From: Flavobacterium album | GTDB taxonomy: Bacteria; Bacteroidota; Bacteroidia; Flavobacteriales; Flavobacteriaceae | Reading direction: 5' to 3' | Length of the DNA: 64,000 nucleotides | Assembly (NCBI RefSeq): GCF_003096035.1 | Contig: NZ_CP029186.1 | Span: 509,001-573,000 of the forward strand | Part shown: piece by piece, positions 2,426-52,397 of the stretch | Layout: each line of letters opens with the position of its first letter | Numbering within the stretch: the stretch's first letter is position 1 | Notes under the pieces: generated by a model | Databases searched by the model: none | The model's input: the letters and a program-made list of their open reading frames with translations, nothing else | Told to the model about the DNA's origin: nothing | Program-made: the position numbers and the translations under genes

Positions 2426-2443
2426 CCATTAATTTACGAAATC

Positions 2444-3277: not shown

Positions 3278-3299
3278 CGATAAAAATTAAGTTGATCTG

Positions 3300-3333
3300 C
3301 TGCCTACAGGATTATTTCCTGTGGGCAGTTTTT
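3300..3333 (+). terminator. Terminator of the ferritin-like operon
   Basis: CTGCCTACAGG and CCTGTGGGCAG form an 11-bp stem (one G-T pair) around ATTATTT, followed by TTTTT. Confidence 0.85.
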
Positions 3334-3485
3334 CGTTTTATCCATTTCTATAATGAAATTATATTGAAAACTGAATATCGCGACAAAGGAAACACCAATT
3401 TAGTCCGCTGTGCGCAAAGGAAATAATCCAAAAGATTATTCAGCAAAATTCTTATATTCGGCGCGCAATACAATTTAACTATCCC

Positions 3486-4088: not shown

Positions 4089-4192
4089 CCTCCGCAAAAT
4101 CTTATATTGCTAAATCTCCACAGACGGATCAAAAATGCAATCCCACAATTTTTGGTATTGATCCCATAAATTTAGCTTCATATACAGGCAAT

Positions 4193-4223
4193 AAAAAAGC
4201 CCCTGAGACATCAGAGGCTTTTT
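4193..4223 (-). terminator. Terminator of tRNA-Leu (probably bidirectional)
   Basis: AAAAAGCCCCTGA and TCAGAGGCTTTTT pair around GACA (one bulge). The flanking A and T runs let it act for the tRNA on the minus strand and for the convergent membrane protein gene. Confidence 0.75.
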
Positions 4224-4228
4224 AGTTG

Positions 4229-4310
4229 TGCGGGTGATAGGACTCGAACCTACACACCGTGAGGCACCAGATCCTAAGTCTGGCGTGTCTACCAATTTCA
4301 CCACACCCGC
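4229..4310 (-). tRNA. tRNA-Leu (anticodon UAG)
   Basis: Class II tRNA of 82 nt. Acceptor stem GCGGGTG/CACCCGC with discriminator A, D-arm TGGTGAAATTGGTAGACAC, anticodon stem CCAGA/TCTGG with loop CTTAGGA giving anticodon TAG, a variable arm, and T-arm GGTTCGAGTCC. CCA is not encoded. Confidence 0.95.
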
Positions 4311-4351
4311 AGGAGATAATTAAACAGGTAATTGTTTCATTATTGTGGGTG

Positions 4352-4380
4352 CAAATATACGCATAGTTTCTTACTATCAA
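4352..4380 (-). promoter_or_regulatory. Promoter of tRNA-Leu
   Basis: On the minus strand TTG (4380-4378), an 18-bp spacer and TATATTTG (4359-4352) make a full Bacteroidota promoter, 42 bp upstream of the tRNA. Confidence 0.75.
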
Positions 4381-4416
4381 AGGAAAAATTGAAATTTTTT
4401 AAAATTTATTTTTTTG

Positions 4417-4424
4417 TACTTTTG
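4417..4424 (+). promoter_or_regulatory. TAnnTTTG -7 box for the dipeptidase gene
   Basis: TACTTTTG lies 28 bp before the ATG at 4453. The nearest upstream TTG (4389-4391) is 25 bp away, slightly long. Confidence 0.5.
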
Positions 4425-4452
4425 ACTGACAAACGTATATCACTAATTATAA

Positions 4453-5841
4453 ATGGATAACATAAAAAATTATGTGCAGCAGCACAAGCAAAGATTTATA
4501 GACGAACTTATAGAATTACTGAAAATACCGTCTGTGAGTGCCGACAGCGCCTACTCACAGGATGTGATCAATACGGCCGATGCGGTTAAGGCCAGCCTCG
4601 AAAAAGCGGGCTGCGATAAAGTAGAGCTTTGCGAGACACCGGGCTACCCTATTGTATATGGCGAAAAGATAATCGACCCCAACCTTCCTACTGTTCTTGT
4701 TTACGGCCATTATGACGTTCAGCCGCCGGACCCGGTAGACCTCTGGACATCGCCGCCGTTTGAGCCTGTCATAAGAAAAACCGAGCTGCACCCGGAAGGC
4801 GCAATATTTGCCCGCGGTGCCTGCGACGACAAAGGCCAGATGTATATGCACGTAAAAGCGCTGGAGTATATGGTGCAGAACAACGCGTTGCCATGCAACG
4901 TGAAATTCATGATCGAGGGCGAGGAAGAAGTAGGTTCGCCAAGCCTTGCCTGGTTTGTAGAGCGCAACCAGGAGAAGCTGGCCAATGATGTGATCCTTAT
5001 CTCAGACACGGGGATGATCTCCAACCAGCAGCCATCTATCACCACCGGATTGAGGGGACTGAGCTATGTTGAGGTGGAAGTTACCGGCCCGAACCGCGAC
5101 CTGCATTCAGGACTATACGGCGGCGCTGTAGCCAACCCGATAAACATCCTTGCCAAGATGATCGCGCAGCTGCATGACGAGAACAACCATATTACCATTC
5201 CCGGATTTTATGATAAGGTAGAAGAACTTACCCGCGAAGAGCGTGACGAGATGGCCAAAGCGCCTTTCTCGCTAGATGCCTATAAGAAAGCGCTGGACAT
5301 TGAAGATGTATATGGCGAAACCGACTATACTACCAACGAGCGCAACTCCATACGTCCTACGCTTGACGTGAACGGCATTTGGGGCGGCTATACCGGCGAA
5401 GGCGCCAAAACGGTTATTGCCAGCAAGGCTTTTGCCAAAATCTCGATGCGATTGGTGCCTGACCAGGACTGGAACGAGATCACGGAATTGTTCACCAAGC
5501 ATTTTACAAGCATTGCACCGAAAGGCGTTACCGTAAAAGTGAAGCCTCATCATGGCGGCCAGGCGTATGTAACACCGATAGACAGCATCGGTTACCGTGC
5601 CGCTGCCGCTGCCTATGAGGAAAGCTTTGGCATCAAGCCGATACCGGTGCGTTCCGGCGGCAGTATCCCTATCGTGGCGCTGTTCGAAAAAGAGCTGAAA
5701 AGCAAAACTATTATGATGGGCTTTGGGCTGGACAGCGATGCCATCCACTCCCCTAACGAGCACTACGGCATATTTAATTATATGAAAGGCATAGAGACGA
5801 TTCCGTTGTTTTATAAGCATTTTACGGAAATGAGTAAATAG
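4453..5841 (+). CDS. M20 family dipeptidase (carnosinase-like)
   Basis: Zinc metallopeptidase of the M20 family, 462 aa, most like cytosolic non-specific dipeptidases (CNDP2/DapE-related) that cleave dipeptides. Di-zinc ligands are visible: H86 and D88 in GHYDVQP, D125 in RGACDDKG, E158/E159 in EGEEEVGS, D185 in ISDTG, and the late histidine in DAIHSPNEHYG. The dimerisation (lid) domain sits between about 205 and 370. No signal peptide, so cytoplasmic. It has its own -7 box. The stop codon runs directly into a 45-nt dispersed palindrome whose first base is the G of TAG. Confidence 0.92.
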   Translation: MDNIKNYVQQHKQRFIDELIELLKIPSVSADSAYSQDVINTADAVKASLEKAGCDKVELCETPGYPIVYGEKIIDPNLPTVLVYGHYDVQPPDPVDLWTSPPFEPVIRKTELHPEGAIFARGACDDKGQMYMHVKALEYMVQNNALPCNVKFMIEGEEEVGSPSLAWFVERNQEKLANDVILISDTGMISNQQPSITTGLRGLSYVEVEVTGPNRDLHSGLYGGAVANPINILAKMIAQLHDENNHITIPGFYDKVEELTREERDEMAKAPFSLDAYKKALDIEDVYGETDYTTNERNSIRPTLDVNGIWGGYTGEGAKTVIASKAFAKISMRLVPDQDWNEITELFTKHFTSIAPKGVTVKVKPHHGGQAYVTPIDSIGYRAAAAAYEESFGIKPIPVRSGGSIPIVALFEKELKSKTIMMGFGLDSDAIHSPNEHYGIFNYMKGIETIPLFYKHFTEMSK

Positions 5842-5885
5842 GCCTCTCCCCAGCCCTCTCCAAAGGAGAGGGAGCAGCTTCACTC
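5841..5885 (+). repeat. 45-nt dispersed palindromic element, copy 1
   Basis: GGCCTCTCCCCAGCCCTCTC, then CAAAG, GAGAGGGAG and the tail CAGCTTCACTC. It contains a CCCTCTCC/GGAGAGGG hairpin with a AAA loop. It matches 19813-19857 at 42 of 45 positions. Shorter, degenerate relatives lie at 28707-28794 and 54152-54188. Confidence 0.8.
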
Positions 5886-5922
5886 AAAATGGAGACACTT
5901 CTGTATAAAGGTTTAAATGATG

Positions 5923-5955
5923 AAAATCCGCTAATAAAAAAGCGGATTTTTTTTA
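5923..5955 (+). terminator. Terminator of the dipeptidase gene
   Basis: AAAATCCGCT and AGCGGATTTT pair perfectly (10 bp) around AATAAAAA, followed by TTTT. Confidence 0.85.
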
Positions 5956-6019
5956 TACCTGTTACAACCCTTTTAGTTATACCCGCATCTTTATAGGAAA
6001 GAACCATAATAATCAGGGT

Positions 6020-6457
6020 ATGAAAGCGATACTAACAAGCACTTTATTTATATTTACATTAAGCGCCTCTGCGCAAAATCTTGTGTTATCCCAGAAAGAA
6101 CCATCACCTGAAAGCAGTTGGGTAAAAGTATACAACGAGGGGCTTATGGGGTATCTGGATGAGACAGGGCAGGAAATAATCCCTCCTGTGTATGAGGAGA
6201 CAGGCCGTTTTGGGGAATATTGCATAAATATGGCAGTGGTGAGAAAAGACGAGCTTTATGGCCTTATAGATACCGATGGCAATGTGGTTGCCGAAGCACA
6301 GTATGACATGATAGGCCGCGAGGGTGAATACAAGCCTGGCTGGATATTGGTACAAAGAGAAGGCCTTTACGGGTTTATTGACCGTAGCGGTGAAGAGATC
6401 GTAACGCCTGCTTACACCGAAATAGGAGTGAAAAGCGATACATTAAAAATTAATTGA
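6020..6457 (+). CDS. Exported WG-repeat protein
   Basis: 145 aa with an N-terminal signal peptide (LFIFTLSASAQN, cleavage near residue 18-19). The mature part has about three WG/KWG-type repeats of the form G-x-x-G-Y/L-I/L-D-x-x-G (GLMGYLDETG, ELYGLIDTDG, GLYGFIDRSG). The family is a small beta-repeat of unknown, presumably binding, function. Its stop overlaps the start of the ECF sigma gene (TGATG), so the three genes 6020-7954 are probably one translationally coupled operon, suggesting a link to envelope-stress control. Confidence 0.8.
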   Translation: MKAILTSTLFIFTLSASAQNLVLSQKEPSPESSWVKVYNEGLMGYLDETGQEIIPPVYEETGRFGEYCINMAVVRKDELYGLIDTDGNVVAEAQYDMIGREGEYKPGWILVQREGLYGFIDRSGEEIVTPAYTEIGVKSDTLKIN

Positions 6458-7002
6458 TGTCCGAAAAGGAACTTATTTCCGGTTGCGCACGCCAGGATCG
6501 ACTGGCACAGCACCATGCTTATACTGCGTATGGCCCAAAAGTCATGGGCATATGCAAGCGGTATATGAAGGACCGGGAGCGTGCCGAGGAGATGGCCATG
6601 AATACGTTTCTTTCCGTTTTCAAAAATATAGGGCAGTACAAAAACGAAGGGAGTTTTGAAGGCTGGATACTTAAGATCGCCGTAAATTGCTGCCTAATGG
6701 AACTACGCAAGAAAACCACCTTCAGCCTTGAAGTAACACACGATGCAATACAATTGCCCGCTCCTGATGAAACATCATCACACTCACACAATGACGATAT
6801 TGAAGCCATGCTGAAGACACTGCCCGATGGTGCGAGGATTGTATTTAACCTCTATGCCATAGAGGGCTATAAGCATGCCGAGATCGCCGAACAGCTAGGC
6901 ATCTCTGAAGGCACATCAAAATCGCAGCTGCACTATGCTAAGGAAAAATTAAAGCAGGCATTTTTCAGCCCTGCCGCTAAAACAGGAAGCCATGAAGGAT
7001 AA
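6457..7002 (+). CDS. ECF-type RNA polymerase sigma factor
   Basis: About 181 aa, the usual length of a sigma-70 family ECF factor. Region 2 is recognisable in RAEEMAMNTFLSVFKNI and FEGWILKIAVNCC; region 4 in IEGYKHAEIAEQLGISEG followed by TSKSQLHYAKEKL. The ATG at 6457 overlaps the stop of the WG-repeat gene (TGATG); a TTG three bases earlier is less likely. The downstream gene overlaps by 11 bp and encodes a membrane protein with the layout of an anti-sigma factor. Target promoters are not known. Confidence 0.9.
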   Translation: MSEKELISGCARQDRLAQHHAYTAYGPKVMGICKRYMKDRERAEEMAMNTFLSVFKNIGQYKNEGSFEGWILKIAVNCCLMELRKKTTFSLEVTHDAIQLPAPDETSSHSHNDDIEAMLKTLPDGARIVFNLYAIEGYKHAEIAEQLGISEGTSKSQLHYAKEKLKQAFFSPAAKTGSHEG

Positions 7003-7954
7003 CGAATTATATGACTTTTTTAAAGACCGGAAACAGGCCTTCGATGAAGCGCCCGGCGACGCTTTATGGTCTAGAATAGAAAGCGGACTTGAAAAGGTAC
7101 CTCAGCCTGTCGCACATAAAGGCGGACTGTCCGTGTTTAAAAAACTCTTATTTCTGCCGGTTGTGGGCATTGTGGCTGCAATAGTCTGGATGGTGGCTTA
7201 TAACCCAAAAAATGCAGAAGAAACTGCAAAGCCACAGCGTATAGGAGTAACTTTGGATGAAAGTAACATTGTAAAAACCGTCGAGGATGCCGCTGTGAAT
7301 AACCAATATAACAGCACTGATACGATAAAAAAGATTAAAGTGCCTGAACTTCAAACTGCTGTTAACCTTGCTCCTGCTCACAGTGCGTTACGTCCGGCTG
7401 ATGCTGTAATAGCAAAAGATACTTTAAGGCTTACGTCTCACGCCGTAAAAATGGAAGCCGTGACTAACCTTTCCCCGCAGATAGTGCAGGTTCAGGAGGC
7501 GGATAACACAAAACTTAAATTGAAAGATGCTCTTGCTTTTAAGACTAAGGCATTTTTTTCTAAAGAGAAGCTAAGGAAAAAGGAAAGCTTAAATCCGGAG
7601 GCAGTATTTTTCTATACGGATAGTGTTCCAAAGGAAAAACAGAAAAACGAATTCGATATTACTGCCGTCTATTCATCGGCGGTAAGACAGGGCACGGCCA
7701 ATGAGCTACTGATAACACCTGCAGATTCGCTTGGTTCTGAACTGAAAGTAATACAAACCGACACCAAAACAGAGCCCGGGCGTACTACCATTACCATAAA
7801 GCAGGCCGTGACAGATGCGCAATTTGACAGCTTTACCGAAAAAGTAAAAAAAGAAAAGACCCATAAGCCCGGCACCCTGATTATAATAACTGCGCCCGGC
7901 CACAAGCCATTCCGCTATAAGGTACCGAAGCCGGTTGGGGAGCTGGGGCCTTAG
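6992..7954 (+). CDS. Putative anti-sigma factor, single-pass membrane protein
   Basis: 320 aa. An N-terminal acidic/basic cytoplasmic part of about 50 residues (DALWSRIESGLEK) precedes one transmembrane helix at about 51-70 (KLLFLPVVGIVAAIVWMVAY) and a long Lys/Thr/Ala-rich periplasmic region. There is no strong family signature and no zinc-binding HxxxCxxC motif. The assignment rests on the 11-bp overlap with the ECF sigma gene and on the cytoplasm-membrane-periplasm layout. The gene ends nine bases before a perfect 22-bp palindrome that may terminate it. Confidence 0.65.
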   Translation: MKDNELYDFFKDRKQAFDEAPGDALWSRIESGLEKVPQPVAHKGGLSVFKKLLFLPVVGIVAAIVWMVAYNPKNAEETAKPQRIGVTLDESNIVKTVEDAAVNNQYNSTDTIKKIKVPELQTAVNLAPAHSALRPADAVIAKDTLRLTSHAVKMEAVTNLSPQIVQVQEADNTKLKLKDALAFKTKAFFSKEKLRKKESLNPEAVFFYTDSVPKEKQKNEFDITAVYSSAVRQGTANELLITPADSLGSELKVIQTDTKTEPGRTTITIKQAVTDAQFDSFTEKVKKEKTHKPGTLIIITAPGHKPFRYKVPKPVGELGP

Positions 7955-7962
7955 GAGTTTCC

Positions 7963-8015
7963 AGTCTCAGTCTCAGTTTTCAGTTTGTTTGTGACTGAAA
8001 ACTGAGACTGAGACT
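7963..8015 (+). repeat. Perfect 22-bp inverted repeat with tandem AGTCTC arms
   Basis: The left arm 7963-7984 is AGTCTC AGTCTC AGTTTT CAGT. The right arm 7994-8015 is its exact complement. The loop is TTGTTTGTG. It lies between the anti-sigma and endonuclease V-like genes, and could work as a terminator, though no strong T run follows. Confidence 0.85.
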
Positions 8016-8034
8016 AAATAACTACCTTAGCGCA

Positions 8035-8538
8035 ATGATATTGGCATTTGACACGTATTACTACGATAACAACGCAAAAACTATTGCATTGCAATTTGCA
8101 GGATGGCAAGATACAGAACCGCTTTCCACCTATTCGGAAATCATTCAGGGCGTGGCCGATTATGAGCCCAGGGCCTTTTACAAAAGAGAGTTACCTTGCA
8201 TATTGAGCCTTTTAAAACAGATAGACCTGTCACAGATAACAGTTATTGTTGTGGATGGTTTTGTATACCTGGATGACAAGGGCACCTTTGGACTTGGCGG
8301 GTATTTGTATTCTGCTTTGAAAGAGCAAATACCTGTTATAGGTGTTGCCAAGACTAATTTTGCCACTATTGAAAAATGCAAGGAACCAGTGTATCGCGGC
8401 GACAGCAAAAACCCGCTGTACATTACCGCAATTGGCACAGACCTGAACAGTGCTGCGCAAAATATCAGGCAGATGCATGGCAGTTTCAGGATGCCGGCAT
8501 TACTGCAAAAGCTGGACGGATTGACGAAGGCTGTTTAG
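8035..8538 (+). CDS. Endonuclease V-like protein (compact, divergent)
   Basis: 167 aa, shorter than typical endonuclease V (about 220 aa), the repair enzyme that nicks next to deaminated adenine. The expected landmarks are there: D6 in LAFDTYYY, E52 in YEPRAFYKREL (the PYxxGxLxFRE region), D74 in VVDGFVYLD followed by GTFGLGGYL, and K106 in GVAKT. The usual DGhG sequence is altered and the C-terminal part is short. A divergent branch is more likely than a truncation, since the frame is intact and conserved throughout. Activity is uncertain. Confidence 0.75.
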   Translation: MILAFDTYYYDNNAKTIALQFAGWQDTEPLSTYSEIIQGVADYEPRAFYKRELPCILSLLKQIDLSQITVIVVDGFVYLDDKGTFGLGGYLYSALKEQIPVIGVAKTNFATIEKCKEPVYRGDSKNPLYITAIGTDLNSAAQNIRQMHGSFRMPALLQKLDGLTKAV

Positions 8539-8601
8539 AATTTTTATTTTAATACAAGCTGAATTGATATAAAGCAGACTTTAACCCAAACTGCCTGATA
8601 A

Positions 8602-9552
8602 TTATTCATAGGCAATTATAGTATATCCAAAACCGATATTGAAGTCGGGATATTTCTTTATCTCGTGCAGGTGTGGCTCGTTAATAGCATGCCACGAGTT
8701 ATTATTGGAAAATGGCTCACGGATAAAAGTCAGCACTCCCTTTGGCCTTTCCACCAGTGGGAAATTTGGTTGGCAGTACTTAGGCCATTTCCGTACGCTG
8801 CCATCGGGATCTGTCGAGGTGAGATATCCTACTTCGTTGCTAAGGCTTCCATCGGGATTGACCCTGCCTAGAATGGTAATTTGCAGAAACATGCCATTCT
8901 CTGCAACCGGCAGCTCTTCTGTGAGGGTTATCCCGAAAGGCTCCTCTTTATTATTATTATCCACAATAGCTACCTGGCCCAAATCGAATAGCCTTTCGCC
9001 CGGCTGCCCACCGTTGTTTTCAAGTACTTCAATTTTTACAAAAGTGCGGAAAGGTACTTTATCAAAAGTACCAGGCCTTCCTTCTGCTTCGAATGCAGCC
9101 TTAAAAACGGGCAATATTATTTTGGAAAGATAAGCTTCCTTCTTATCCGACTTTACAAGGAAGGCATATTGCAGTCCTATTGACGACATATACATTGCGC
9201 CGTTGTCCCTGTGCAGTTTTGCCTTAATGACATCTTCACGCTTTTTTGATTTCTTTTTCGATACTACTACTTCTTTCAGTTCGATGGGTTGTGGCTCTAA
9301 AGTCAGCACATCGGTAATTGAAGAAATATCAGCCCTCTTTTCGCGGTAGCCGACGGATGACACCGTGATGGCCGTTACCGAAGTATCGGTGATAATCACA
9401 CTGCCGTCTTCGCCCGCATAAATTCCATAACCATTGTTGAGGTTGATGCCTGCGTATGGGACAGGAGCTTTGGTTGAGGCATCTATAACAGTGAATTTCT
9501 TTTGCGCGAAAGCTGTTGTGACGATAAAAAAGAATGCGATTAAATATTTCAT
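8602..9552 (-). CDS. Exported carboxypeptidase-like regulatory domain protein
   Basis: 316 aa with signal peptide (YLIAFFFIVTTAFAQ, about residues 3-17). Residues about 18-95 form a CarboxypepD_reg-like beta-sandwich (FTVIDASTKAPVPYAGINL ... TLEPQPIELKEVVV), common at the N-terminus of Bacteroidota outer-membrane proteins. The remaining about 200 residues show no TonB plug or barrel. It is most likely periplasmic or surface-associated with an unknown role. It is convergent with the endonuclease V-like gene; no terminator is evident between the two stops. Confidence 0.75.
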   Translation of the reverse strand: MKYLIAFFFIVTTAFAQKKFTVIDASTKAPVPYAGINLNNGYGIYAGEDGSVIITDTSVTAITVSSVGYREKRADISSITDVLTLEPQPIELKEVVVSKKKSKKREDVIKAKLHRDNGAMYMSSIGLQYAFLVKSDKKEAYLSKIILPVFKAAFEAEGRPGTFDKVPFRTFVKIEVLENNGGQPGERLFDLGQVAIVDNNNKEEPFGITLTEELPVAENGMFLQITILGRVNPDGSLSNEVGYLTSTDPDGSVRKWPKYCQPNFPLVERPKGVLTFIREPFSNNNSWHAINEPHLHEIKKYPDFNIGFGYTIIAYE

Positions 9553-11863: not shown

Positions 11864-13192
11864 ATGAAAGATTTCATCATCACATCTACCATAAGCCTGG
11901 GCGTGCTGCTGGCAGTTTACCATCTGCTGCTTGAACGGGAAAAAATGCACCGGTTTAACAGGTTTTACCTCTTAGCGGCGTTGGCATTCTCTTTTGTGAT
12001 TCCGTTTATAACGCTGCCGGCGGCGTTGGCGGTCATGCCAGCAGTAACGGAAAAAGCCACTGTATCCGGCCTGCTTTCGACGGGAGTTACCCCGGCAACA
12101 ATAACTGCAGCAGCAGCGCCACAAGACGTGAATTATTGGACGTATACCGGCTGGGGATTATATGGGCTCATAGTGCTTGGGCTAGCCATAAGGTTTTCAG
12201 TCAATATAAGGCGCTTTTATAATGTGAAGAAACAAAGCAGGACGCTTGCATACGAAGGGGTTGCTTTGGTAATCCTTAAAGATAATGTACTGCCACATAC
12301 ATTCCTGGACAACATTTTCATTTCTGAAAAAGATTATGAGGAACGGTTTGCTGCACCGGAACTTTTAACGCACGAACTTACACATATTCACCAGCGGCAC
12401 ACGTTAGATATTCTTTTCATAGAGTTAGTTAAGATAGTATTGTGGTTTAACCCGCTGGTGTATTTGTACAAAAGGGCGATACAGATGAACCACGAGTTCC
12501 TGGCTGATGAAAACGTGGTCGGTGAACACAACAATGTGCCTGCCTACCAGCAGCTCCTGCTTGAAAAAGCAATCCCTTCGCCTGTATATGCGCTGGCGAG
12601 TACGATTAATTTCAATATAACAAAAAAACGATTTATCATGATGACAAAAACCACCACAAAAATAAGGGCAGCGATACTACAGCTTGCCATATTGCCGGTA
12701 ATTGCAGCGCTAATGCTTTTGTCCTGCAGCACAAGTGATATTGTTGAAAGCAAAACCGCTGCGGCAATTGTTACCGAAAACATCACGCCAACCGGAAGTG
12801 TTGAGGTGACTACCGTGACTGAAGATGAAAAGAAGGCCTTACTGGTATCAGACCCGAAAACATTTGACGACCCTACAGCCGAATACAAACGTATAAAGAT
12901 TACAGATAAAGAGAAAAACGGAAGCACGACGGAAAAGATCACTTATAGAAAAGATGAGCCGATGAATTATGACTGGGACCATAATAGTGAAGCAGCGAAA
13001 ATAGACCCTAATGAGCTTGTCAGTATCGATGTATTCTCCATGTCGGATGCCCAAATTGATTCCCTGAAAACAACTAACCCGGGAAAATATGGCAAATATG
13101 AACCTAAAAGCTGCAGTGTAGTAGTTTATAAGCTAAAGGATGGAAAAACAATAAAAGAAGTCGTCCACCGAAAATCTGTGGCTTCCAATTGA
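11864..13192 (+). CDS. Second BlaR1-like M56 metallopeptidase
   Basis: 442 aa paralogue of the preceding gene, 65 bp downstream. N-terminal helices and the metallopeptidase core are conserved (H170-E-L-T-H174, NHEFLADE about 35 residues later), as is the segment FNITKKRFIMMTKTTTK just before the last transmembrane helix. The extracytoplasmic tail is only about 150 residues, Lys/Asp/Glu-rich, and lacks the TonB-like domain of its neighbour. This suggests a tandem duplication with divergence of the sensing part. A strong terminator ends the operon here. Confidence 0.87.
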   Translation: MKDFIITSTISLGVLLAVYHLLLEREKMHRFNRFYLLAALAFSFVIPFITLPAALAVMPAVTEKATVSGLLSTGVTPATITAAAAPQDVNYWTYTGWGLYGLIVLGLAIRFSVNIRRFYNVKKQSRTLAYEGVALVILKDNVLPHTFLDNIFISEKDYEERFAAPELLTHELTHIHQRHTLDILFIELVKIVLWFNPLVYLYKRAIQMNHEFLADENVVGEHNNVPAYQQLLLEKAIPSPVYALASTINFNITKKRFIMMTKTTTKIRAAILQLAILPVIAALMLLSCSTSDIVESKTAAAIVTENITPTGSVEVTTVTEDEKKALLVSDPKTFDDPTAEYKRIKITDKEKNGSTTEKITYRKDEPMNYDWDHNSEAAKIDPNELVSIDVFSMSDAQIDSLKTTNPGKYGKYEPKSCSVVVYKLKDGKTIKEVVHRKSVASN

Positions 13193-31169: not shown

Positions 31170-31177
31170 TAGTTTTT

Positions 31178-40859: not shown

Positions 40860-41645
40860 ATGAATATTTCTACGATCAACAACAGCATCCAGCCCCAAAG
40901 GGATCTGTTGTTACAGCATTCCTTATACACTAAGGTAAAAACTATTGACGATCTGAAGCATTTTCTTGAAGGGCATGTTCATGCAGTTTGGGATTTTATG
41001 TCGCTGCTTAAGGCGTTGCAGTCAAAGCTTACCTGCACCACTACCCCATGGCTGCCTGTAGGCAACCCCGAGATACGATACCTTATCAATGAGATCGTGC
41101 TTGCAGAGGAGACCGACATTAATGCCGAGGGGCAAAGGCAGAGCCATTATGAAATGTACCTGGATGCCATGAAGGCATGTGGCGCTGATACATCGGCCAT
41201 AGAAGCCTTCCTTGATGATGTGGTGGAGACCCAGAATATTTTTGTATCCATCAAAAAAAGCGGGCTGCACGAAAACATAAAGGCATTTCTCGATTTCACG
41301 TTCAGGGTTATCGATAAAGGCCATCCTCATGAAATTGCAGCGGCATTTACCTTTGGCCGCGAAGACCTTATACCTTCAATGTTTACCGAGATACTGAAGA
41401 ACTTCAGGGAAAGTTTCCCCGAAGCCAATCTTGATAAGCTCATTTATTACTTCGAGCGCCACATTGCCCTGGATGCCGATGAGCACGGGCCAATGGCAAT
41501 GCAGATGGTTACTGAGCTGTGCGGCTCCGACTCAAGGAAATGGAAAGAGGTGGAAGAAGTATCGGTACAGGCGCTCGAAAAAAGGATCGCCCTGTGGGAT
41601 GCGATCGAGGAAAATATACTCCAGCACGACCTCGCTTCGATATAA
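40860..41645 (+). CDS. DUF3050 family protein
   Basis: 261 aa, helical. The DUF3050 group has a haem oxygenase-like fold of unknown activity. Typical segments are LLQHSLYTKVKTIDDLKHFL, HVHAVWDFMSLLKALQ, GNPEIRYLINEIVLAEETD and the C-terminal HIALDADEHGPMAMQMV, with conserved His and Glu residues placed as possible metal ligands (H in HVHAVWDFM, E in EIVLAEETD, H in ERHIALDADEHG). Single-gene unit; its terminator begins the block that carries the first 52-bp direct repeat. Confidence 0.87.
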   Translation: MNISTINNSIQPQRDLLLQHSLYTKVKTIDDLKHFLEGHVHAVWDFMSLLKALQSKLTCTTTPWLPVGNPEIRYLINEIVLAEETDINAEGQRQSHYEMYLDAMKACGADTSAIEAFLDDVVETQNIFVSIKKSGLHENIKAFLDFTFRVIDKGHPHEIAAAFTFGREDLIPSMFTEILKNFRESFPEANLDKLIYYFERHIALDADEHGPMAMQMVTELCGSDSRKWKEVEEVSVQALEKRIALWDAIEENILQHDLASI

Positions 41646-41655
41646 GTTAAAGTTG

Positions 41656-41684
41656 ATCCCCGCCATTATAAGCGGGGATTTTTT
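41656..41684 (+). terminator. Terminator of the DUF3050 gene
   Basis: ATCCCCGC and GCGGGGAT (8 bp, perfect) around CATTATAA, followed by six T. The right arm and T run are the start of the 52-bp direct repeat. Confidence 0.88.
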
Positions 41685-41725
41685 ATGCCTTGTTGTGTCG
41701 CGGTTAACATAATTTTAACTACATT
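41674..41725 (+). repeat. 52-bp direct repeat, left copy
   Basis: Starts GGGGATTTTTTATGCCTTGT and ends AACATAATTTTAACTACATT. It is identical to 43636-43687. It includes the 3' arm and T run of a terminator, then a promoter-like stretch (TTG, 17 bp, TAATTTTA). Confidence 0.93.
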
Positions 41726-41754
41726 GAGAGCTTATTAAATTAAAATCTATAAAT

Positions 41755-43536
41755 ATGTCATATCTAAACATTACTGTAGGAAACATTGCGGAATTAAAGA
41801 ATTATCCTGTTGGTACAGATGAAATTACTGCTTTTGTTCAGGCATATACCAACAGAGGCGATGGAGGTGGTGGGACTTTCATTTTTAAACGTCCTTTATC
41901 AGGTATAGCGACAGATGACGGCGGCATCTTTATTGCGCCCACTACTCAAACCTCAGGTCATGAAGGTATGTGGATTCGGCAATTTACAGGGTTTATCGAT
42001 GTTAGGTTTTATGGTGTAATGGGCGAGAATCCCAGTGTTGATGCTACAGATGGCTTTCAGGCAGCCATTAATTATGCTGCAAAAAGCACAGCGAATTATC
42101 CTGCCAACCCTTTCATTTACAATAAAAGCAACGTAGTCTTTGTACCTAATGGAGAGTATAAAGTGAAACAACTTACTTTAAAAACAGGTGTTACACTTAT
42201 GGGTAGTTCCTCCGAGCATACTAAAATTGGAGTACATCCTGACTCAACAGCCGATTATTTAATACAGATGGCGCCAGGAGTTAACCGATCAGTTAATATT
42301 AGTGGAATTTGGTTTGTTGGAAATAGAGTGGCAAATTTTAACCCTCTTACAGGTAAGCTCATAGGTGGTTTGAATTTTACGGCCCAACTCGATGGCAATC
42401 CCGATAAAGTTTCAGGAGGACTTTGGGAATCTTCTATTAAAAATGTGCTAATTACAAATTTTACGCGACATTCTCTACTTTTTGGAGGTGGAGGGGATGA
42501 GATAGACTACCAATATAATCTCATGAACCAATTCATTACACTTGAAAACGTTTTTATAGAAGGAGTATCGGACCTTAAACCAGATTTTCCGACATTCGAT
42601 ATTCCAAATTCATTGCAAATTATAGGACAAAATGCACAATTCTCGTTTACTAATTGCAGAGTCGATAGTGGCCCATATAAAGTTGCAGCCGGAGTACCAA
42701 ATTACACAATTAATGGCATCAATGTTTACATAGGCCCGCTACAGAATGGTATTGTAAGTCCATGTATAATTACTTTCAATACATGTACTTTTCAGTTTGG
42801 GGAACATGCGATATTCATACAGGATTCTAGTAATATTAAAATTGATGGTTGTTGGTTCGAAAACCTTAACAGAGCAATTGTAGCAAAGGGTTCTAGCATA
42901 GACAAAACCGCAAAAGCTATTAATATTCTCAATAATTATTTCCTTTATAGTGCAACACCATATAAAACCGTACCTAATTCAGGACGTGTTATTTTGGCCG
43001 AATTTGCACACGTTAATGTACATAATAATCAAGTCATGGATCCTCGCAACAATTCGGGACACACATACTTTGTATCTGTTGAAAATATAAATAATACAAT
43101 AGGTATTAACGGAAGTGGAAATTATTTTAATAACGCACCAACTAATCTAGGGGATACACAAGGCATAAAGCGAAATATAGATATTTCAAATCTTACAACT
43201 ACTGAAAACCTTGTTACTTCAAAAAATGACATTAATTTGATATCGTCGCGCATGGTTATATTAGCTACAGGTACGAGCCTAAAAATTGTAAACGAAATTA
43301 AATCTAACGCGGTAGGAGGTGAATTCATAATTATTCAGGCAGTAGGAGGTAATATAAAATTTACTGAACTCTATAACATAAGACTAGGCTTATTAGCTGG
43401 TGGAACTGGACAAATTACATTAAATAATGGGAGATTTGCACTTTTCGCAAAAATTGATGGATTCTACTATTCAAAATCCACACCTAACGGACCTAAAGAT
43501 TTTTTTGATATTTACCAATTAATAAATATTAATTAA
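41755..43536 (+). CDS. Beta-helix protein of pectate lyase 3/tailspike type
   Basis: 593 aa with no signal peptide or T9SS domain. The N-terminal part (VGTDEITAFVQAYTNRGDGG, then GGTFIFKRP) and the start of the helix (VRFYGVMGENPSVDATDGFQ, VVFVPNGEYKVKQLTLKTG) match the Pectate_lyase_3 layout shared by phage tailspikes, GH55-like enzymes and surface polysaccharide depolymerases. Repeating N/G/I-rich coils fill the middle; the C-terminal about 130 residues form a different beta-rich domain. The gene is clearly more AT-rich than all neighbours and sits between two 52-bp direct repeats, signs of acquisition. Substrate and delivery route are unknown. Confidence 0.8.
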   Translation: MSYLNITVGNIAELKNYPVGTDEITAFVQAYTNRGDGGGGTFIFKRPLSGIATDDGGIFIAPTTQTSGHEGMWIRQFTGFIDVRFYGVMGENPSVDATDGFQAAINYAAKSTANYPANPFIYNKSNVVFVPNGEYKVKQLTLKTGVTLMGSSSEHTKIGVHPDSTADYLIQMAPGVNRSVNISGIWFVGNRVANFNPLTGKLIGGLNFTAQLDGNPDKVSGGLWESSIKNVLITNFTRHSLLFGGGGDEIDYQYNLMNQFITLENVFIEGVSDLKPDFPTFDIPNSLQIIGQNAQFSFTNCRVDSGPYKVAAGVPNYTINGINVYIGPLQNGIVSPCIITFNTCTFQFGEHAIFIQDSSNIKIDGCWFENLNRAIVAKGSSIDKTAKAINILNNYFLYSATPYKTVPNSGRVILAEFAHVNVHNNQVMDPRNNSGHTYFVSVENINNTIGINGSGNYFNNAPTNLGDTQGIKRNIDISNLTTTENLVTSKNDINLISSRMVILATGTSLKIVNEIKSNAVGGEFIIIQAVGGNIKFTELYNIRLGLLAGGTGQITLNNGRFALFAKIDGFYYSKSTPNGPKDFFDIYQLININ

Positions 43537-43622
43537 CCGAGATATGGAAAACTAATCATGCTTAACTGTCTCTCTTATAGAGGTCAATTATTGATCACAA
43601 GCGTAAAGCCACTATATAATAT

Positions 43623-43646
43623 AATCCCCTATGAAGGGGATTTTTT
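43623..43646 (+). terminator. Terminator of the tailspike-like gene
   Basis: AATCCCCT-ATGA-AGGGGATT then a T run. The loop and left arm differ from the DUF3050 terminator, but the right arm and T run are shared through the 52-bp repeat. Confidence 0.88.
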
Positions 43647-43687
43647 ATGCCTTGTTGTGTCGCGGTTAACATAATTTTAACTACATT
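43636..43687 (+). repeat. 52-bp direct repeat, right copy
   Basis: Identical to 41674-41725, offset 1962 bp. It ends 31 bp before the M43 protease start, so its promoter-like part lies in the natural promoter position of that gene. Confidence 0.93.
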
Positions 43688-43718
43688 CGGCGCAATTATC
43701 AATCTCACCTATTATTAA

Positions 43719-45755
43719 ATGAAATTAAACTTTACCATCAAAGCCGGTTTGCTCGGCCTGGCTTTCATTTCCCTCGGAGCCAACGCACAGACACATCCAG
43801 CCAAAAGGTTTGGAAAGCCAGTAGAATTTGCAAAATGCGGCGTTACGGAATACGAATCGCTTTTGCAGCGAAAAGATCCGCAAAGGGCGAACAAGCAACA
43901 GTTTGAACAATGGATAGCGCCAAAAGTTGCCGAAGCAAAAGCAAGGCGCCTGCAGAAAAGCGGGCAGAATACTAACACTGTTGTAACTATACCGGTGGTA
44001 GTACATGTAATACACAATGGAGACCCTGTTGGAACAAACGAAAATATTGCCGATGGACAAATCCTGTCACAGATTACAGTTCTTAACCAGGATTTCAGGA
44101 AAATGCTGAATACTCCCGGCTACAACGACAACCCTGTGGGAGCTGACCTTGAAATTGAATTCTGCATGGCGCAACGCGATCCGGCAGGACTCAATACATC
44201 GGGTATCATCCGTTATGAACTTGGCTCTGATGAAGGTTGGGATATGGAGGATGTCGAAGTCCTTAAAACCCAAACCCAATGGGACCCTACAAAATACCTT
44301 AACCTTTGGGTTGTGAATGAAATATATGTTGGAGGCTTTCTTCAGCTGGCGGGATATGCACAATTCCCCACCGACTCCGGACTGGATGGGCTTGACGACG
44401 GAACGCCTGTAACAGCCAATACCGACGGTGTTGTAATCGCTGCCAATTGCTTTGGCTCGGTAGACGTTTATCCCGGCGGAAATTATTTCCCGAATAAAGA
44501 CAAAGGAAGGACAGCTTCGCACGAGATTGGGCACTTTTTTGGCCTTAGGCACATTTGGGGAGATGAAACAGATTGCATGGGCAACGACTTTTGCGACGAT
44601 ACCCCAGCAGCTGCTGATGCTAACCAGGGATGTCCTGATGCCGACTGGGATTCATGCCCTAACGATGCGGGCCACGATATGGTGCAGAATTATATGGACT
44701 ATACCGACGATGCCTGCCTGAATATTTTTACACTGAACCAAAAAGACAGGATGATGGCCGTGCTGGCTAACTCACCAAGGAGGGCTTCGCTTACAACATC
44801 TAACGGCTGCGTACCGGGCGAGGTCTTCAACACTGACGGCTCTTTGAACATTCAGGGTGTGAATCCGGGGTGTGGCAGTACATTCGCTCCGCAGGTTGTG
44901 CTTAAAAACACAGGCAACACAACGTTGACTACCGCTGCCATTAATTATTACATTGATGCCCAGGCACCGGCAGTGTACAACTGGTCAGGAAGCCTTGCTA
45001 ACGGACAGCAAACAACCATCCAGCTTCCTGAGTTTACTGTTGCACCGGGAAGCCATACTTTTAACGTTGCCATAGATTCGGCTAACGGTATTGACGACCA
45101 GGCGCCTGCAAACGACAACAAGTCGCAGGCATTTACCATTGTTGGAGCATACAACACTTCATCGGTTATAGTAACTATTATGACGGACGATTTTGGAGAA
45201 GAAACTATTTGGGCAGTAGTAGACGGCGATCAAAACCCAATCGCGGCGAATATCGATTTCAATACGGGCCAGTTTGACACTTATGGGCCTAATGAGCTTC
45301 ACACTATAACGGTGCCGATTCCTGCAGACGGATGTTATTCATTTGGCGTATTTGACCTTCAGGGTGACGGAATGTGCTGCGAATATGGCGAGGGCTACTA
45401 CAGGGTGGAAACAGCCGAGGGTATACTGATCGCTGAAGGCGGACAGTTCGGACAGCAGGAAACCAAAGATTTCAGGATTGACAGCAATCTTGGCCTTGGA
45501 GAAAAAGCAGAAGGGCTTAACCTCATCAGCCTGTACCCGAACCCTGCGAGCAGCCAGCTTACGATTGCTCTGCCACAGGCATTGGCGCTTCCTGATAGCT
45601 ACACCATATACAACAGCCTTGGCCAGGTTATGGGCAATGGCAAATTTGCTTCGGCTACGCAACAGGTAAATGTTTCCGGCTATGCCAACGGTGTTTACTT
45701 CATCAAAATCGCTTCGGGCGAAAATTCACGAACACTACGATTCATTAAATCCTAG
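43719..45755 (+). CDS. Secreted M43 metalloprotease with T9SS sorting domain
   Basis: 678 aa. Signal peptide (about 1-23, LGLAFISLGANAQ). Pro-region with a conserved Cys (FAKCGVTEYE), a possible cysteine switch. The catalytic motif is H268-E-I-G-H272-F-F-G-L-R-H278 with the Met-turn in MVQNYMDYTDDAC, as in M43 cytophagalysins/pappalysins. A CARDB-like beta domain and another beta domain (TDDFGEETIWAV ... SFGVFDLQGDGMCC) follow. The last about 80 residues are a type A T9SS sorting domain (LISLYPNPASSQ ... YANGVYFIKIAS). Paralogue of the protease at 47784. Confidence 0.92.
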   Translation: MKLNFTIKAGLLGLAFISLGANAQTHPAKRFGKPVEFAKCGVTEYESLLQRKDPQRANKQQFEQWIAPKVAEAKARRLQKSGQNTNTVVTIPVVVHVIHNGDPVGTNENIADGQILSQITVLNQDFRKMLNTPGYNDNPVGADLEIEFCMAQRDPAGLNTSGIIRYELGSDEGWDMEDVEVLKTQTQWDPTKYLNLWVVNEIYVGGFLQLAGYAQFPTDSGLDGLDDGTPVTANTDGVVIAANCFGSVDVYPGGNYFPNKDKGRTASHEIGHFFGLRHIWGDETDCMGNDFCDDTPAAADANQGCPDADWDSCPNDAGHDMVQNYMDYTDDACLNIFTLNQKDRMMAVLANSPRRASLTTSNGCVPGEVFNTDGSLNIQGVNPGCGSTFAPQVVLKNTGNTTLTTAAINYYIDAQAPAVYNWSGSLANGQQTTIQLPEFTVAPGSHTFNVAIDSANGIDDQAPANDNKSQAFTIVGAYNTSSVIVTIMTDDFGEETIWAVVDGDQNPIAANIDFNTGQFDTYGPNELHTITVPIPADGCYSFGVFDLQGDGMCCEYGEGYYRVETAEGILIAEGGQFGQQETKDFRIDSNLGLGEKAEGLNLISLYPNPASSQLTIALPQALALPDSYTIYNSLGQVMGNGKFASATQQVNVSGYANGVYFIKIASGENSRTLRFIKS

Positions 45756-45776
45756 ACATTAACAATTCTATTTAAA

Positions 45777-45803
45777 TAGCCCCCGCCAATAAAGCGGGGG
45801 CTA
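45777..45803 (+). terminator. Terminator of the first M43 protease gene
   Basis: TAGCCCCCGC and GCGGGGGCTA (10 bp, perfect) around CAATAAA, followed by TTC. Confidence 0.85.
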
Positions 45804-45865
45804 TTCATTTACCGCGGTAATAGACCGTTTTACCTCATAATTTCGCGTCAGCGGTATTTTCTCAG

Positions 45866-45873
45866 TAATTTTG
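45866..45873 (+). promoter_or_regulatory. TAnnTTTG -7 box for the LytS/LytTR pair
   Basis: TAATTTTG, 17 bp before the ATG of the kinase gene. No matching TTG upstream. Confidence 0.45.
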
Positions 45874-45890
45874 GCGCAATATTTCCTGTA

Positions 45891-46919
45891 ATGGCAAAAA
45901 AAACGCAAACCTACCTTCTTCATATACTGGGCAGTGTGCTCTTCCTGAGCATCCCGATACTGTCGTCACCGGATCGCGAATCGCCCGGCCTGTTTCACAT
46001 AGCGCCTTTTCAGCGCGATTTTAGTACCTATGTATTGCTCCTTGCTTTTTTTTACGCAAACTACGTGTACTTTATCCCAAAGCTGTATTTCTCTAACCGA
46101 CGGCTGCTTTTCTTTTTAGCAATTACAGGCTGTTATTTTACAATAGCATTGCTGCCATGCTTTGTTTTGGGCAACGGACGTATGCCCTCTGCTATGCCAC
46201 AGCACGAATTTCACCACCGGGACTACGGACACCATTTTGTGCCTTTTTTCCGTGGCGGGTCGGTGTTCCAGTTCCTGCTTGTATTTTTCCTTTCTTTCTT
46301 TATGCGGGTAAGCCAGCGCCTGGCAACGATTCAAAGTGAAAAGCTAAAGACAGAGGTCTCTTACCTTAAAGCACAGATTAATCCACATTTCCTGTTCAAT
46401 ACATTAAACAGCCTGTATGCGCTGGCCCTTGAAAAATCGGATGCAGCACCTGAGGCTATACTGAAGCTCTCGGCCATGATGCGGTATGTGGTTACTGAAA
46501 GCAGCCGCGACATTGTACCGCTTGAAAGCGAGATAGGGTACCTGAAAAATTACATCAGCCTGCAACAGCTGCGTATGGACGGCGGCACGCCTTTTTCATT
46601 TATCATTACAGGCGATCTTACCGGCAAAAGGATATCGCCAATGCTGCTGATCCCATTTATAGAAAATGCCTTTAAGCACGGGCTGAATCCCGAGGAGGAT
46701 ACCTTTATAGCTATCGCTATCGACGTTACGGAAAAAGAACTGGAACTGAGCGTTAAGAACAACAAAGTAGCTGTAGCAATACCGCTTGAGGAAAAAAGCG
46801 AGCAGGGTATAGAAAATACCCGGCAAAGGCTGGAATATCTTTATCCGCAAAAGCACAAATTGGCTATATTTGATACTGATGCTTCCTTTGAGGTTAAACT
46901 AACACTTACATTGGCATGA
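45891..46919 (+). CDS. LytS/YehU-type sensor histidine kinase
   Basis: 342 aa. About four transmembrane helices in the first 145 residues (LLHILGSVLFLSIPIL, YVLLLAFFYANYVYF, LLFFLAITGCYFTIALLP, VFQFLLVFFLSFFMRVS), then the His_kinase domain with H166 in AQINPHFLFNTLNSLYA, and the ATP-binding region (LLIPFIENAFKHGLNPEED). No sensory domain outside the membrane bundle. The stop overlaps the LytTR regulator start by 4 bp. It sits between two secreted M43 proteases. Confidence 0.92.
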   Translation: MAKKTQTYLLHILGSVLFLSIPILSSPDRESPGLFHIAPFQRDFSTYVLLLAFFYANYVYFIPKLYFSNRRLLFFLAITGCYFTIALLPCFVLGNGRMPSAMPQHEFHHRDYGHHFVPFFRGGSVFQFLLVFFLSFFMRVSQRLATIQSEKLKTEVSYLKAQINPHFLFNTLNSLYALALEKSDAAPEAILKLSAMMRYVVTESSRDIVPLESEIGYLKNYISLQQLRMDGGTPFSFIITGDLTGKRISPMLLIPFIENAFKHGLNPEEDTFIAIAIDVTEKELELSVKNNKVAVAIPLEEKSEQGIENTRQRLEYLYPQKHKLAIFDTDASFEVKLTLTLA

Positions 46920-47596
46920 TAAAAGCCATAGCCATAGACGATGAGCCCCTGGCCCTTAAGGTCATAGAGCATTTTTGCAGGCAATCGGCAACTGTTGAGC
47001 TGGAAAAAACCTTTACCAATACGGCAGAAGCCTTAAAGTACCTGAATAAATTTCCGGTAGACCTCCTGTTTCTTGACATCCAGATGCCGGGAAAAAATGG
47101 GCTCGACTTTTACAGGCAGCTTGACAACGATATAATGGTAATATTTACCACAGCCTATAGCGAATATGCGGTAGAAGGTTTTAATGTGAATGCTGTTGAT
47201 TATCTTCTGAAGCCTTTCTCGTTCGAGCGGTTTATGACAGCGACAGAGAAAGCCACAAAAGAACAGAAAGCAAGGCAAAACACAACAGAGCACAACCACC
47301 TCCTGATACGTGCCGATTACAAACTGCACCGTATAGAATTTAGTGATATACTGTTGGTAGAAGGGCTTGATGACTATATCCGGATCCACCTGAAAGGCAA
47401 AACTCCTATAACCACCCGGCTATCAATGAAAAGCATCCTTGAAAAACTGCCAGATTCAGAATTTTTAAGGGTACACAGGTCGTATATAGTCCCATTGAGA
47501 AAAATTAAAACAATTTACAATAAAACCATACAAATTGACGATTTCGTTATTCCTATCGGCGACACTTATAAAGACGAAATAAATAAACGCATTTAA
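46916..47596 (+). CDS. LytTR family response regulator
   Basis: 226 aa. The receiver domain is at 1 to about 115 with phosphoacceptor D54 in LLFLDIQMPG and conserved DDEP (8-11) and K103-region (LLKPFSFERF). The LytTR DNA-binding domain is at about 125-226 (RADYKLHRIEFSDILLVEGL, DYIRIHLKGK, FLRVHRSYIVPL). Such regulators bind direct repeats related to [TA][AC][CA]GTTN[AG][TG]; one match (TACGTTTGT, 47668-47676) lies over the -7 box of the downstream protease gene, making that gene a plausible target. Confidence 0.93.
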   Translation: MIKAIAIDDEPLALKVIEHFCRQSATVELEKTFTNTAEALKYLNKFPVDLLFLDIQMPGKNGLDFYRQLDNDIMVIFTTAYSEYAVEGFNVNAVDYLLKPFSFERFMTATEKATKEQKARQNTTEHNHLLIRADYKLHRIEFSDILLVEGLDDYIRIHLKGKTPITTRLSMKSILEKLPDSEFLRVHRSYIVPLRKIKTIYNKTIQIDDFVIPIGDTYKDEINKRI

Positions 47597-47604
47597 CATT
47601 TACT

Positions 47605-47708
47605 TAACGTTTACCGCTGCATTTAGTGTTTTTACCTACATTTTTTGCATTTCGCAGCACTTTGATTTACGTTTGTATACTGATAATCAGCTACTAATTT
47701 TAACGTTT
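47605..47708 (+). promoter_or_regulatory. Protease promoter with ACGTTT motifs (possible LytTR sites)
   Basis: TTG (47645-47647), a 20-bp spacer and TACGTTTG (47668-47675) give a consensus promoter. TAACGTTT occurs at 47605-47612 and again at 47701-47708, and TACGTTTGT at 47668-47676 fits the LytTR-site consensus. The 5' leader is about 105 nt. Confidence 0.55.
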
Positions 47709-47783
47709 TTTATTTGGAATAACACTGATTTTAAGTACCTTTCGAGACTTTTTTAAAACATTTTTATTACTTTTTACCCAAAC

Positions 47784-49163
47784 ATGAAAAAAACTATCTA
47801 TAGTAAACTTGCTTTACTAGCCATCTTCCTTACATTGGGCTACACTGCTAATGCCCAAAAACAGGCAAGGGCATTTGGAAGGCCTGTAAAAGCAGCCCCA
47901 ACCGAAAGCGGCCACATACGATGTGTATCAACAGAATACGAAGATTACCTGCAGGAAAAATTTGAAGACAGGGCTACAAAAGAACAATTTGAACAGTGGA
48001 TTGCAGGAAAAATTGCTGAGGAAAAATTACACAGGCAGGCATCCCCAAGCAATGAAGCTATTGTAATCACGATACCTGTTGTTGTACACGTAATACACGA
48101 CGGCGATAATGTAGGCTCAGGTGAAAACATTAAAGAAGGACAGGTACTTTCCCAGATCACGGTTCTTAACCAGGATTACAGGAAAATGGCCGGCACACCC
48201 GGATTCAACAGCGATGAGGTAGGCGCCGATGTCGAGATAGAATTCTGCCTTGCCAAAACAGCGCCCGATGGCACGCTTACCAATGGTATTGACAGGGTAA
48301 ACCTTGGAGTGTCTCAATGGGGCAACGATGATATTGAGAACATCATGAAACCTGAAACAATATGGGATCCGACTAAATACTTTAACATCTGGGTATGCCG
48401 TTTTGGACTTGACCTTAGCGATGTACTGGGTTACGCGCAATTCCCTGCCGCATCTACCCTTCAGGGCCTTAGTGGACCTTATACCGCCAACACTGATGGC
48501 GTTGTGATTGGGTATCAAAATTTCGGGTCAAGGACTATTTTCCCTGGAGGCACTTATCAGACACCTTATGACAAAGGCCGTACTGCAACACACGAAATAG
48601 GCCACGCACTTGGCTTAAGGCATATTTGGGGCGATTATGATGGGTGTAGCTCTGCACCTCAAAACGGGGATTACTGTGCTGACACGCCAGTCTCTGAAAC
48701 AGCAAATGACACATGTCCTGACGGTTTTGACTCCTGCCCATCGTTAGCCGGAGTGGATATGACCAATAACTATATGGACTATACCAGGGACAACTGCATG
48801 AACTTATTTACAGCTGACCAAAAAATAAGGATCAGGACGGTAATGCAAAACTCACCAAGAAGGGCTTCGCTCACTACCTCTACAGTATGCCAGCCACCTC
48901 TCGGAGTTCAGGATTTTGAATTGCTTAACGGTATAAACCTATATCCGAACCCTGCCCAGGATATCCTGAACATTGCAGTGGAAAATGGCGAACTGCCTGA
49001 CAGCTTCACGATCTACAATAACCTTGGCCAAACGATTGCCACAGTAAAAGTAAGCAGCAACGCTAACCTTACTGTTAACACTTCTTCTTATAGCAATGGT
49101 ATTTACTTTATCAAAATAGATAAAGGCAGCCAGTCTAAGAAACTGAAATTCGTTAAGAACTAA
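47784..49163 (+). CDS. Secreted M43 metalloprotease with T9SS sorting domain, second copy
   Basis: 459 aa. Signal peptide (LALLAIFLTLGYTANAQ). Pro-region GRPVKAAPTESGHIRCVSTE has a conserved Cys. Catalytic motif H270-E-I-G-H274-A-L-G-L-R-H280 and Met-turn NNYMDYTRDNC. The type A T9SS domain at the C-terminus (LLNGINLYPNPAQDILNIAV ... YSNGIYFIKIDKGSQSKKL) targets it to the cell surface. Strongly similar to the first protease over the catalytic domain (shared QITVLNQDYRKM and SPRRASLTTS segments) but without its two inserted beta domains. Confidence 0.93.
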   Translation: MKKTIYSKLALLAIFLTLGYTANAQKQARAFGRPVKAAPTESGHIRCVSTEYEDYLQEKFEDRATKEQFEQWIAGKIAEEKLHRQASPSNEAIVITIPVVVHVIHDGDNVGSGENIKEGQVLSQITVLNQDYRKMAGTPGFNSDEVGADVEIEFCLAKTAPDGTLTNGIDRVNLGVSQWGNDDIENIMKPETIWDPTKYFNIWVCRFGLDLSDVLGYAQFPAASTLQGLSGPYTANTDGVVIGYQNFGSRTIFPGGTYQTPYDKGRTATHEIGHALGLRHIWGDYDGCSSAPQNGDYCADTPVSETANDTCPDGFDSCPSLAGVDMTNNYMDYTRDNCMNLFTADQKIRIRTVMQNSPRRASLTTSTVCQPPLGVQDFELLNGINLYPNPAQDILNIAVENGELPDSFTIYNNLGQTIATVKVSSNANLTVNTSSYSNGIYFIKIDKGSQSKKLKFVKN

Positions 49164-52260: not shown

Positions 52261-52397
52261 GTGGGAAGTCCGAAGTCGGAGGTCCGATGTACTGAGCTGG
52301 AAGTTAAAGCGTGAACAACGAGGATGAAAGGTTGTAAACTAATGCCACATAACGTTTTAGGCACCAGACATCGGACCTCCGACTTCGGACTTCCCAC
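52261..52397. repeat. 30-bp perfect inverted repeat built from heptamers
   Basis: The left arm 52261-52290 reads GTGGGAAG TCCGAAG TCGGAGG TCCGATG T. The right arm 52368-52397 is its exact reverse complement. They enclose a 77-nt loop. The right arm ends 8 bp from the stop of the alkyltransferase-like gene and the left arm lies 90 bp before the mrp start. Confidence 0.9.

Follow-up and report, generated by a model that had tools for sequence, protein, structure and literature searches.

The 64,000-nt stretch of Flavobacterium album DNA analysed here (the window, to which all coordinates without a prefix refer) holds a genuine and clean insertion of one gene, whose joint can be read unusually well. 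Two identical copies of a 52-bp direct repeat (41674-41725 and 43636-43687, plus strand, spacing 1962 bp) enclose an insert of 1910 bp (41726-43635, plus strand; GC 0.355), whose sole open reading frame of at least 80 aa encodes a 593-aa protein, a putative short-form beta-helix of the "tailspike-like", fibre-tip kind (41755-43536, plus strand). To the left is a DUF3050 gene (40860-41645, plus strand; PF11251, E 6.6e-103), and to the right the gene for an M43 metalloprotease with a type IX sorting domain (43719-45755, plus strand; PF05572, E 6.9e-18; PF18962, E 8.4e-14). The reading favoured here over att-type integration, with a probability of roughly one in two, is that the gene entered by an insertion anchored at a terminator, in the course of which the host junction was copied.

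A preliminary description of this DNA had placed the two copies at just these positions around one gene, and its coordinates proved exact. Identity ends abruptly outside both copies, on each side, and a perfect 52-mer cannot have arisen by chance. Duplication of the 52-mer during assembly is unlikely because the outer flanks differ; more generally, an assembly artefact has nothing to recommend it beyond the presence of the repeat, and with a single-contig genome and unique outer flanks it is very improbable indeed. Further genomic copies, for which the preliminary description had proposed a search, did not turn up: there is no third copy in the 3.98-Mb contig (3,983,546 bases searched), where the other matches are four of only 14-19 nt each (E 3.95). 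Among 398 genomes of the genus (the strain's own included), searched with a 131-base query and at most two candidates scored per genome, the 52-mer was not found in the 397 others; nor was it found in phages and plasmids, nor its first 30 bases, the only part used as query there, in viral contigs. Partial foreign matches of 19-54 bases to the 131-base query occur in 39 of the 397 genomes, and the three inspected by eye are AT-rich or unrelated stretches. The 52-mer was rejected as a reused site, the genus genomes having given partial matches only and the phages and plasmids none. A search of Rfam gave no match. Within the beta-helix gene, 43158-43169 is a 12-nt exact inverted match to TTTATGCCTTGT of the repeat, which may be chance; elsewhere in the window, a perfect inverted repeat of 30 bp, its arms 77 nt apart, lies at 52261-52397, with related dispersed repeats near 31177 and 19866.

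Each copy of the repeat carries the 3' arm and T-run of a terminator-like hairpin, completed in each case by a different 5' arm. At the left copy this arm is the host's, DUF3050's own (hairpin 41655-41680, plus strand; 9 pairs, -16.0 kcal/mol). At the right copy the 5' arm comes from the end of the insert and pairs with the repeat's GGGGATT (hairpin 43623-43642, plus strand, 3' of the beta-helix gene; 8 pairs, -12.3 kcal/mol). Both hairpins belong to a set of 14 terminator-like sites found in 10 kb, where shuffled sequences lead one to expect 9.5. Exact hairpins of the form ATCCCC..GGGGATTTTT occur at only eight loci in 3.98 Mb (nine matches, two of which are one site on both strands; a reversed control pattern gave 0), and since two of the eight are at the insert joint, their presence there is unlikely to be accidental. 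The original end of the insert was therefore probably a terminator with GGGGATTTTTT in common with that of the host.

The remainder of the repeat resembles a promoter more weakly. The candidate -7 box of the M43 gene, TACATTCG (43682-43689, plus strand), is split at the repeat's right edge, as TACATT|CG; it is similar to the TAnnTTTG promoter consensus, with an equally good match in 273 of 500 shuffles and hence no significance alone, and the corresponding box of the beta-helix gene is equalled in 323 of 500 (the start codon used for one relative, L009, in this test was one base off). The preliminary description had read each copy as the 3' half of a terminator plus a promoter-like stretch; the two hairpins bear out the first part, and the shuffles leave the second weak. 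Its statement that the insertion leaves the DUF3050 terminator and the protease promoter intact agrees with the present reading, in which all three transcription units are whole. TTCGGCGCA starts inside the right copy, extends beyond its edge and recurs in one relative, L044, almost equally far from the start codon; L044 also has TAAATTCG at a place similar to that of TACATTCG. Judging from these comparisons, the native junction seems to continue across both outer edges of the repeat, into the host 5' arm on the left and through TTCGGCGCA on the right.

The empty site can be seen in relatives. Loci compared were 29 from a DUF3050 search and 80 more; an acyl-CoA dehydrogenase gene precedes DUF3050 in most of those fetched, and the nearest DUF3050 homologue is 82% identical. 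In six (L008, L009, L043, L044, L045, and L094) DUF3050 is followed by M43, and in all six the beta-helix gene is absent within the stretch examined. The gap between the two genes is 92-235 nt in five of them, to be compared with 111 nt for the window once the insert and one repeat are subtracted, and a hairpin with T-run 3' of DUF3050 is readable by eye in four of these five short-gap relatives. Because six relatives keep both neighbours without the gene, it was most likely gained at the DUF3050-M43 site of the window. The 52-mer was not found in any of the relatives' empty sites.

In the sixth relative, F. akiainvivens (L045), the interval is 1.2 kb long and holds two overlapping open frames on the minus strand (90 and 132 aa), perhaps one broken gene, flanked by two copies of a 124-bp repeat that are 86% identical. 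This repeat is full-length only at this interval in the F. akiainvivens genome, nine further matches being fragments. Since other frames lie there between different repeats, the DUF3050-M43 interval appears to have accepted other DNA as well. The suggestion that the junction serves as a cassette site is supported in part, by the empty sites of five relatives and by the other frames in F. akiainvivens. The latter lie between different repeats, and exchange through the 52-mer, for which no other copy was found, was not borne out.

Several other features of the neighbourhood may be mentioned. A PADLOC search gave one weak match, to DUF3050 (E 0.0083). Two M43 proteases with sorting domains enclose genes which by eye are kinase-like and regulator-like (43719-49163); homologues of the latter genes follow DUF3050 in two further loci that gave no M43 match (L046 and L087).

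The favoured mechanism would run as follows; its order of events, anchor, promoter activity, and source are what we infer. One foreign gene, bringing its own terminator, would have entered the gap that separates DUF3050 from the M43 protease. The donor terminator would have shared GGGGATTTTTT with the resident DUF3050 terminator, and recombination or template switching may have been anchored there, with the other end joined just beyond the protease promoter, using little homology. In the process the host's 52-bp stretch, comprising the terminator half and the promoter, would have been copied. The left copy would then complete the DUF3050 terminator and supply a promoter to the new gene, and the right copy complete the new gene's terminator and preserve the protease promoter. 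This model is favoured because the insert probably ended in a terminator sharing GGGGATTTTTT with that of the host. Also counted in its favour are a second clean case (L172, below) and the lack of a tyrosine-integrase gene in the window; counted against it are that an attachment core would likewise give a perfect 52-bp repeat, that the donor sequence was not found and its terminator is deduced, that the relatives compared come no closer than 82% identity in DUF3050, and that the promoter box is non-significant.

Whether other members of the family carry such scars was assessed by scoring direct repeats in the 800-bp flanks of 18 family genes and 591 other genes from 88 sequences (1.19 Mb). Bracketing repeats with a score of at least 20 were found for 4/18 family genes and 6/591 others (Fisher p 1.0e-4), and with a score of at least 30 for 3/18 and 3/591. 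The four positives are the window gene, L172, L170, and L166; the other 14 score at most 17, which also counts against anchored insertion. Leaving out the window gives 3/17 (p not recomputed). The test was post hoc, the repeats of the window, L166, and L170 having been seen beforehand, and the rule by which a short gene lying upstream is counted as part of the unit was introduced after a first run, in which six of 324 genes scored at least 20, three of them family genes, with L166 not among them. The controls are mostly core-gene neighbourhoods, and repeats may be more frequent at accessory genes. On such scars, the case for a recurrent route by which fibre-tip genes enter is suggestive only.

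In L172, a homologue has a recQ-like gene on one side and a convergent gene on the other, and is bracketed by near-identical terminators (38 of 44 columns). The two flanking genes are kept in 27 of 29 relatives' loci, with gaps of 9-263 nt in 23 and 442-1423 nt in four, and the homologue is absent from all 29. In L170 the unit follows an rfbD-like gene, with a copy of the rfbD 3' end beyond it (183 alignment columns); in L166, also after an rfbD-like gene, the copy beyond the unit is 41 bp long, and a further decayed rfbD 3'-end copy stands before the unit. The repeats of L166 and L170 are therefore gene 3' ends and not terminators as in L172, another point against the anchored model. (The names recQ, rfbD, histidine kinase, response regulator, and lysozyme-like are presumptive throughout.) An rfbD 3'-end hotspot independent of the family was considered and rejected: among the matches listed for 121 genus genomes, a set that excluded G241 and G323 and in which copies as short as that of L166 would escape detection, there was no extra copy of the 3' end alone, the exceptions being a split gene in G107 and a contig end in G140.

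These cases bear on a second possibility, that the two copies are attL and attR. A circular cassette comprising terminator, core, and beta-helix gene would have integrated, site-specifically or by short homology, with the 52-mer as the core common to chromosome and circle and a recombinase acting in trans or since lost. Such a core would explain the perfect 52-bp identity equally well, and both sides read terminator-core-promoter, as restored attachment sites do; integrase-type insertions at gene 3' ends are alike in having a direct repeat that restores the host unit. The repeats at other family units, of 41 (L166), 44 (L172), and 183 (L170) columns, include two copies of gene 3' ends, and the 3' end of a gene is a usual integrase target. 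Five integrase-family matches are present at four places elsewhere in the genome. On the other side, the preliminary description had reported no integrase, and a PF00589 search agrees, finding no gene of the tyrosine-integrase family in the insert or the window; the model also requires a recombinase and a donor that carries the identical 52-mer, and the genus, phage, plasmid, and viral-contig searches supplied no such donor. Only one gene is present, and there is no common att core, because the repeats vary between loci and the orientation of the unit relative to rfbD differs between L166 and L170. Integration of this kind is on the unlikely side. With the beta-helix gene as its only frame of at least 80 aa and no PF00589 match, the insert shows no recombinase gene such as a site-specific integrative element would carry; with no inverted pair of at least 11 nt at its two ends and no second such frame it does not qualify as a transposon or insertion sequence, and the window has no PF00589 gene by which an integron might be recognized.

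A third possibility, raised in the preliminary description, is that the junction was duplicated in tandem by unequal crossing-over and that the beta-helix gene then took the place of the duplicated gene. Two identical junctions would be expected here too, and the match of the insert's 3' tail to the DUF3050 end of L044 is beaten by only 4 of 500 shuffles, that to the strain's own whole DUF3050 gene by 10. However, an unrelated window stretch reaches 19/500 and the strain's own DUF3050 end 36/500, and the six relatives together give 389, 146, 4 (L044), 73, 58, and 61 of 500. With eight comparisons made and the unrelated stretch at 19/500, there is no clear DUF3050 trace in the tail; a decayed DUF3050 3' end there, by analogy with L166 and L170, was rejected for the same reasons, as one low value among eight. 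A tblastn search with M43 proteins gave no match inside the insert (L037), the five relatives examined have one short junction, and two steps are less economical than one insertion. This explanation is improbable.

The inserted gene is more AT-rich than its neighbours (GC 0.359, against 0.469 and 0.485), as the preliminary description had it, though the stretch at 38.5-39.2 kb is equally AT-rich (0.36), so that composition alone proves little. The description of the product as a putative beta-helix-type protein lacking a signal peptide is supported; the stop-to-stop frame has only 602 codons to the 593 from the ATG and leaves no room for a signal peptide. The protein has an N-terminal GDGGGGxF region and beta-helix-type repeats. 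It has no match in PHROGs, NCBIfam, or the copy of Pfam searched; a protein database assigns it PF27114.1, among 37 in all of the 52 proteins listed. Its relatives are from Flavobacterium and metagenomes, at no more than 44% identity over most of the length (a partial one, P0025, at 47%), and family matches occur in 15 of the 398 genus genomes (own included; three with fragments only). Alone against a structure database it matches only polyhedrin (E 0.22); the family profile matches 2pyg (E 2.3e-6), 8jhh (E 2.8e-5), and 5c1c (E 5.7e-4), an AlgE4-type epimerase, a laminarinase-like protein, and pectinesterases being the structures concerned, which we take to be beta-helix enzymes.

Short members of the family, the window protein among them, lack an N-terminal part, so that the window protein corresponds to the tip half; long members add an N-terminus like that of MAT fibres. 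The MAT N-terminal model is matched by 13 of 24 aligned members at E 0.1 or better (best 1.7e-13), a number equal to that of the aligned long forms, which may or may not be the same proteins. MAT membership of the long forms is unproven, since L166, at 22.2 bits, stays below the model's curated cut-off of 60. Several long forms lie after a small gene, the one scanned having a type IX sorting tail; their signal peptides are presumptive. Short and long forms are intermixed in a tree of 67 proteins (support values not inspected), which makes repeated gain and loss of the N-terminal module probable. In one genome three long-form genes lie near one another, a small gene being interspersed (L171:6751-13254); in two others (L160 and L165, about 2300-8700), short-form genes are preceded by a common set of three genes that are 50-73% identical, at a location unlike that of the window.

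The likeness to phage tailspikes (PF12708 and its kin) lies in the GDGGGGxF region, the beta-helix-type repeats, and a paralogue in the resident prophage that matches a tail-fibre PHROG (E 1.4e-9); the unlikeness is that the window protein itself matches none of the PHROG, NCBIfam, and searched Pfam models. PF12708 is matched by 8 of the 24 family members, the window protein not among them, and phage records gave three weak matches to it. As the gene is not among tail genes and both neighbours are conserved in relatives, it does not rank as a phage tail component. "Tailspike-like tip" is nonetheless a fair description of the predicted protein, which is probably a tip that binds a receptor or glycan and descends from phage-like fibres.

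The paralogue, a distant one and the genome's second short-form member, sits before the terminase genes of the prophage (G000:C1:1632800-1660500; L189 from 3824, L275 to about 16538), in which repressor, terminase, and neck-like genes are recognized by PHROGs and, as in the window, PF00589 is absent. Repeats containing CCTCTCCTTTGGAGAGG flank the terminase large-subunit gene there (L189:10578-10693 and 12583-12712). The resident prophage was rejected as the source of the window gene, the two proteins being far apart in the tree. That the insert is itself the remnant of a prophage, of which only the attachment sites and a single tail gene escaped deletion, could draw on this homologue and on the 92 stretches in viral contigs matched by the family's N-terminal part. 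Against this, a single gene is left and has a terminator-like hairpin of its own, its homologue in the prophage is no near relative in the tree, and the neighbours are conserved in relatives, making a remnant quite improbable.

Among known systems, 10-18% of the variable segments in three species are flanked by direct repeats, and illegitimate recombination assisted by homology was already known, according to PMC2884548. The segments described there are similar to the present one in being small, present in some genomes only, and bracketed by a direct repeat; 66-94% of their repeats are shorter than 30 bp, whereas that of the window is 52 bp, perfect, made up of a terminator half and a promoter, and leaves all units whole. 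The mosaic adhesive trimer (MAT) fibres of Bdellovibrio (PMC10769870) resemble the family members that match the MAT N-terminal model; the window protein, with neither that N-terminus, nor room for a signal peptide, nor an NCBIfam match, is not one of them. No title on insertion joints of the beta-helix family was found among the literature matches listed.

Genes are commonly gained with no mobile element in sight, but the joints can rarely be read. The perfect joint described here shows the addition of a gene that may come under a copied host promoter, with the neighbouring terminator and promoter left whole. It is a speculative and rather unlikely extension that in Flavobacteria a trans-mobilised or recombination-borne system might add fibre-tip genes as single promoter-ready cassettes, targeting terminators or gene 3' ends and copying the host junction, with tip-only genes as a pool from which prophage spikes and secreted MAT-like fibres would be re-tipped. 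How signal-less tips are connected with MAT-like fibres and with a prophage gene deserves following up, and similar scars at other members of the fibre-tip family would make the entry route testable.
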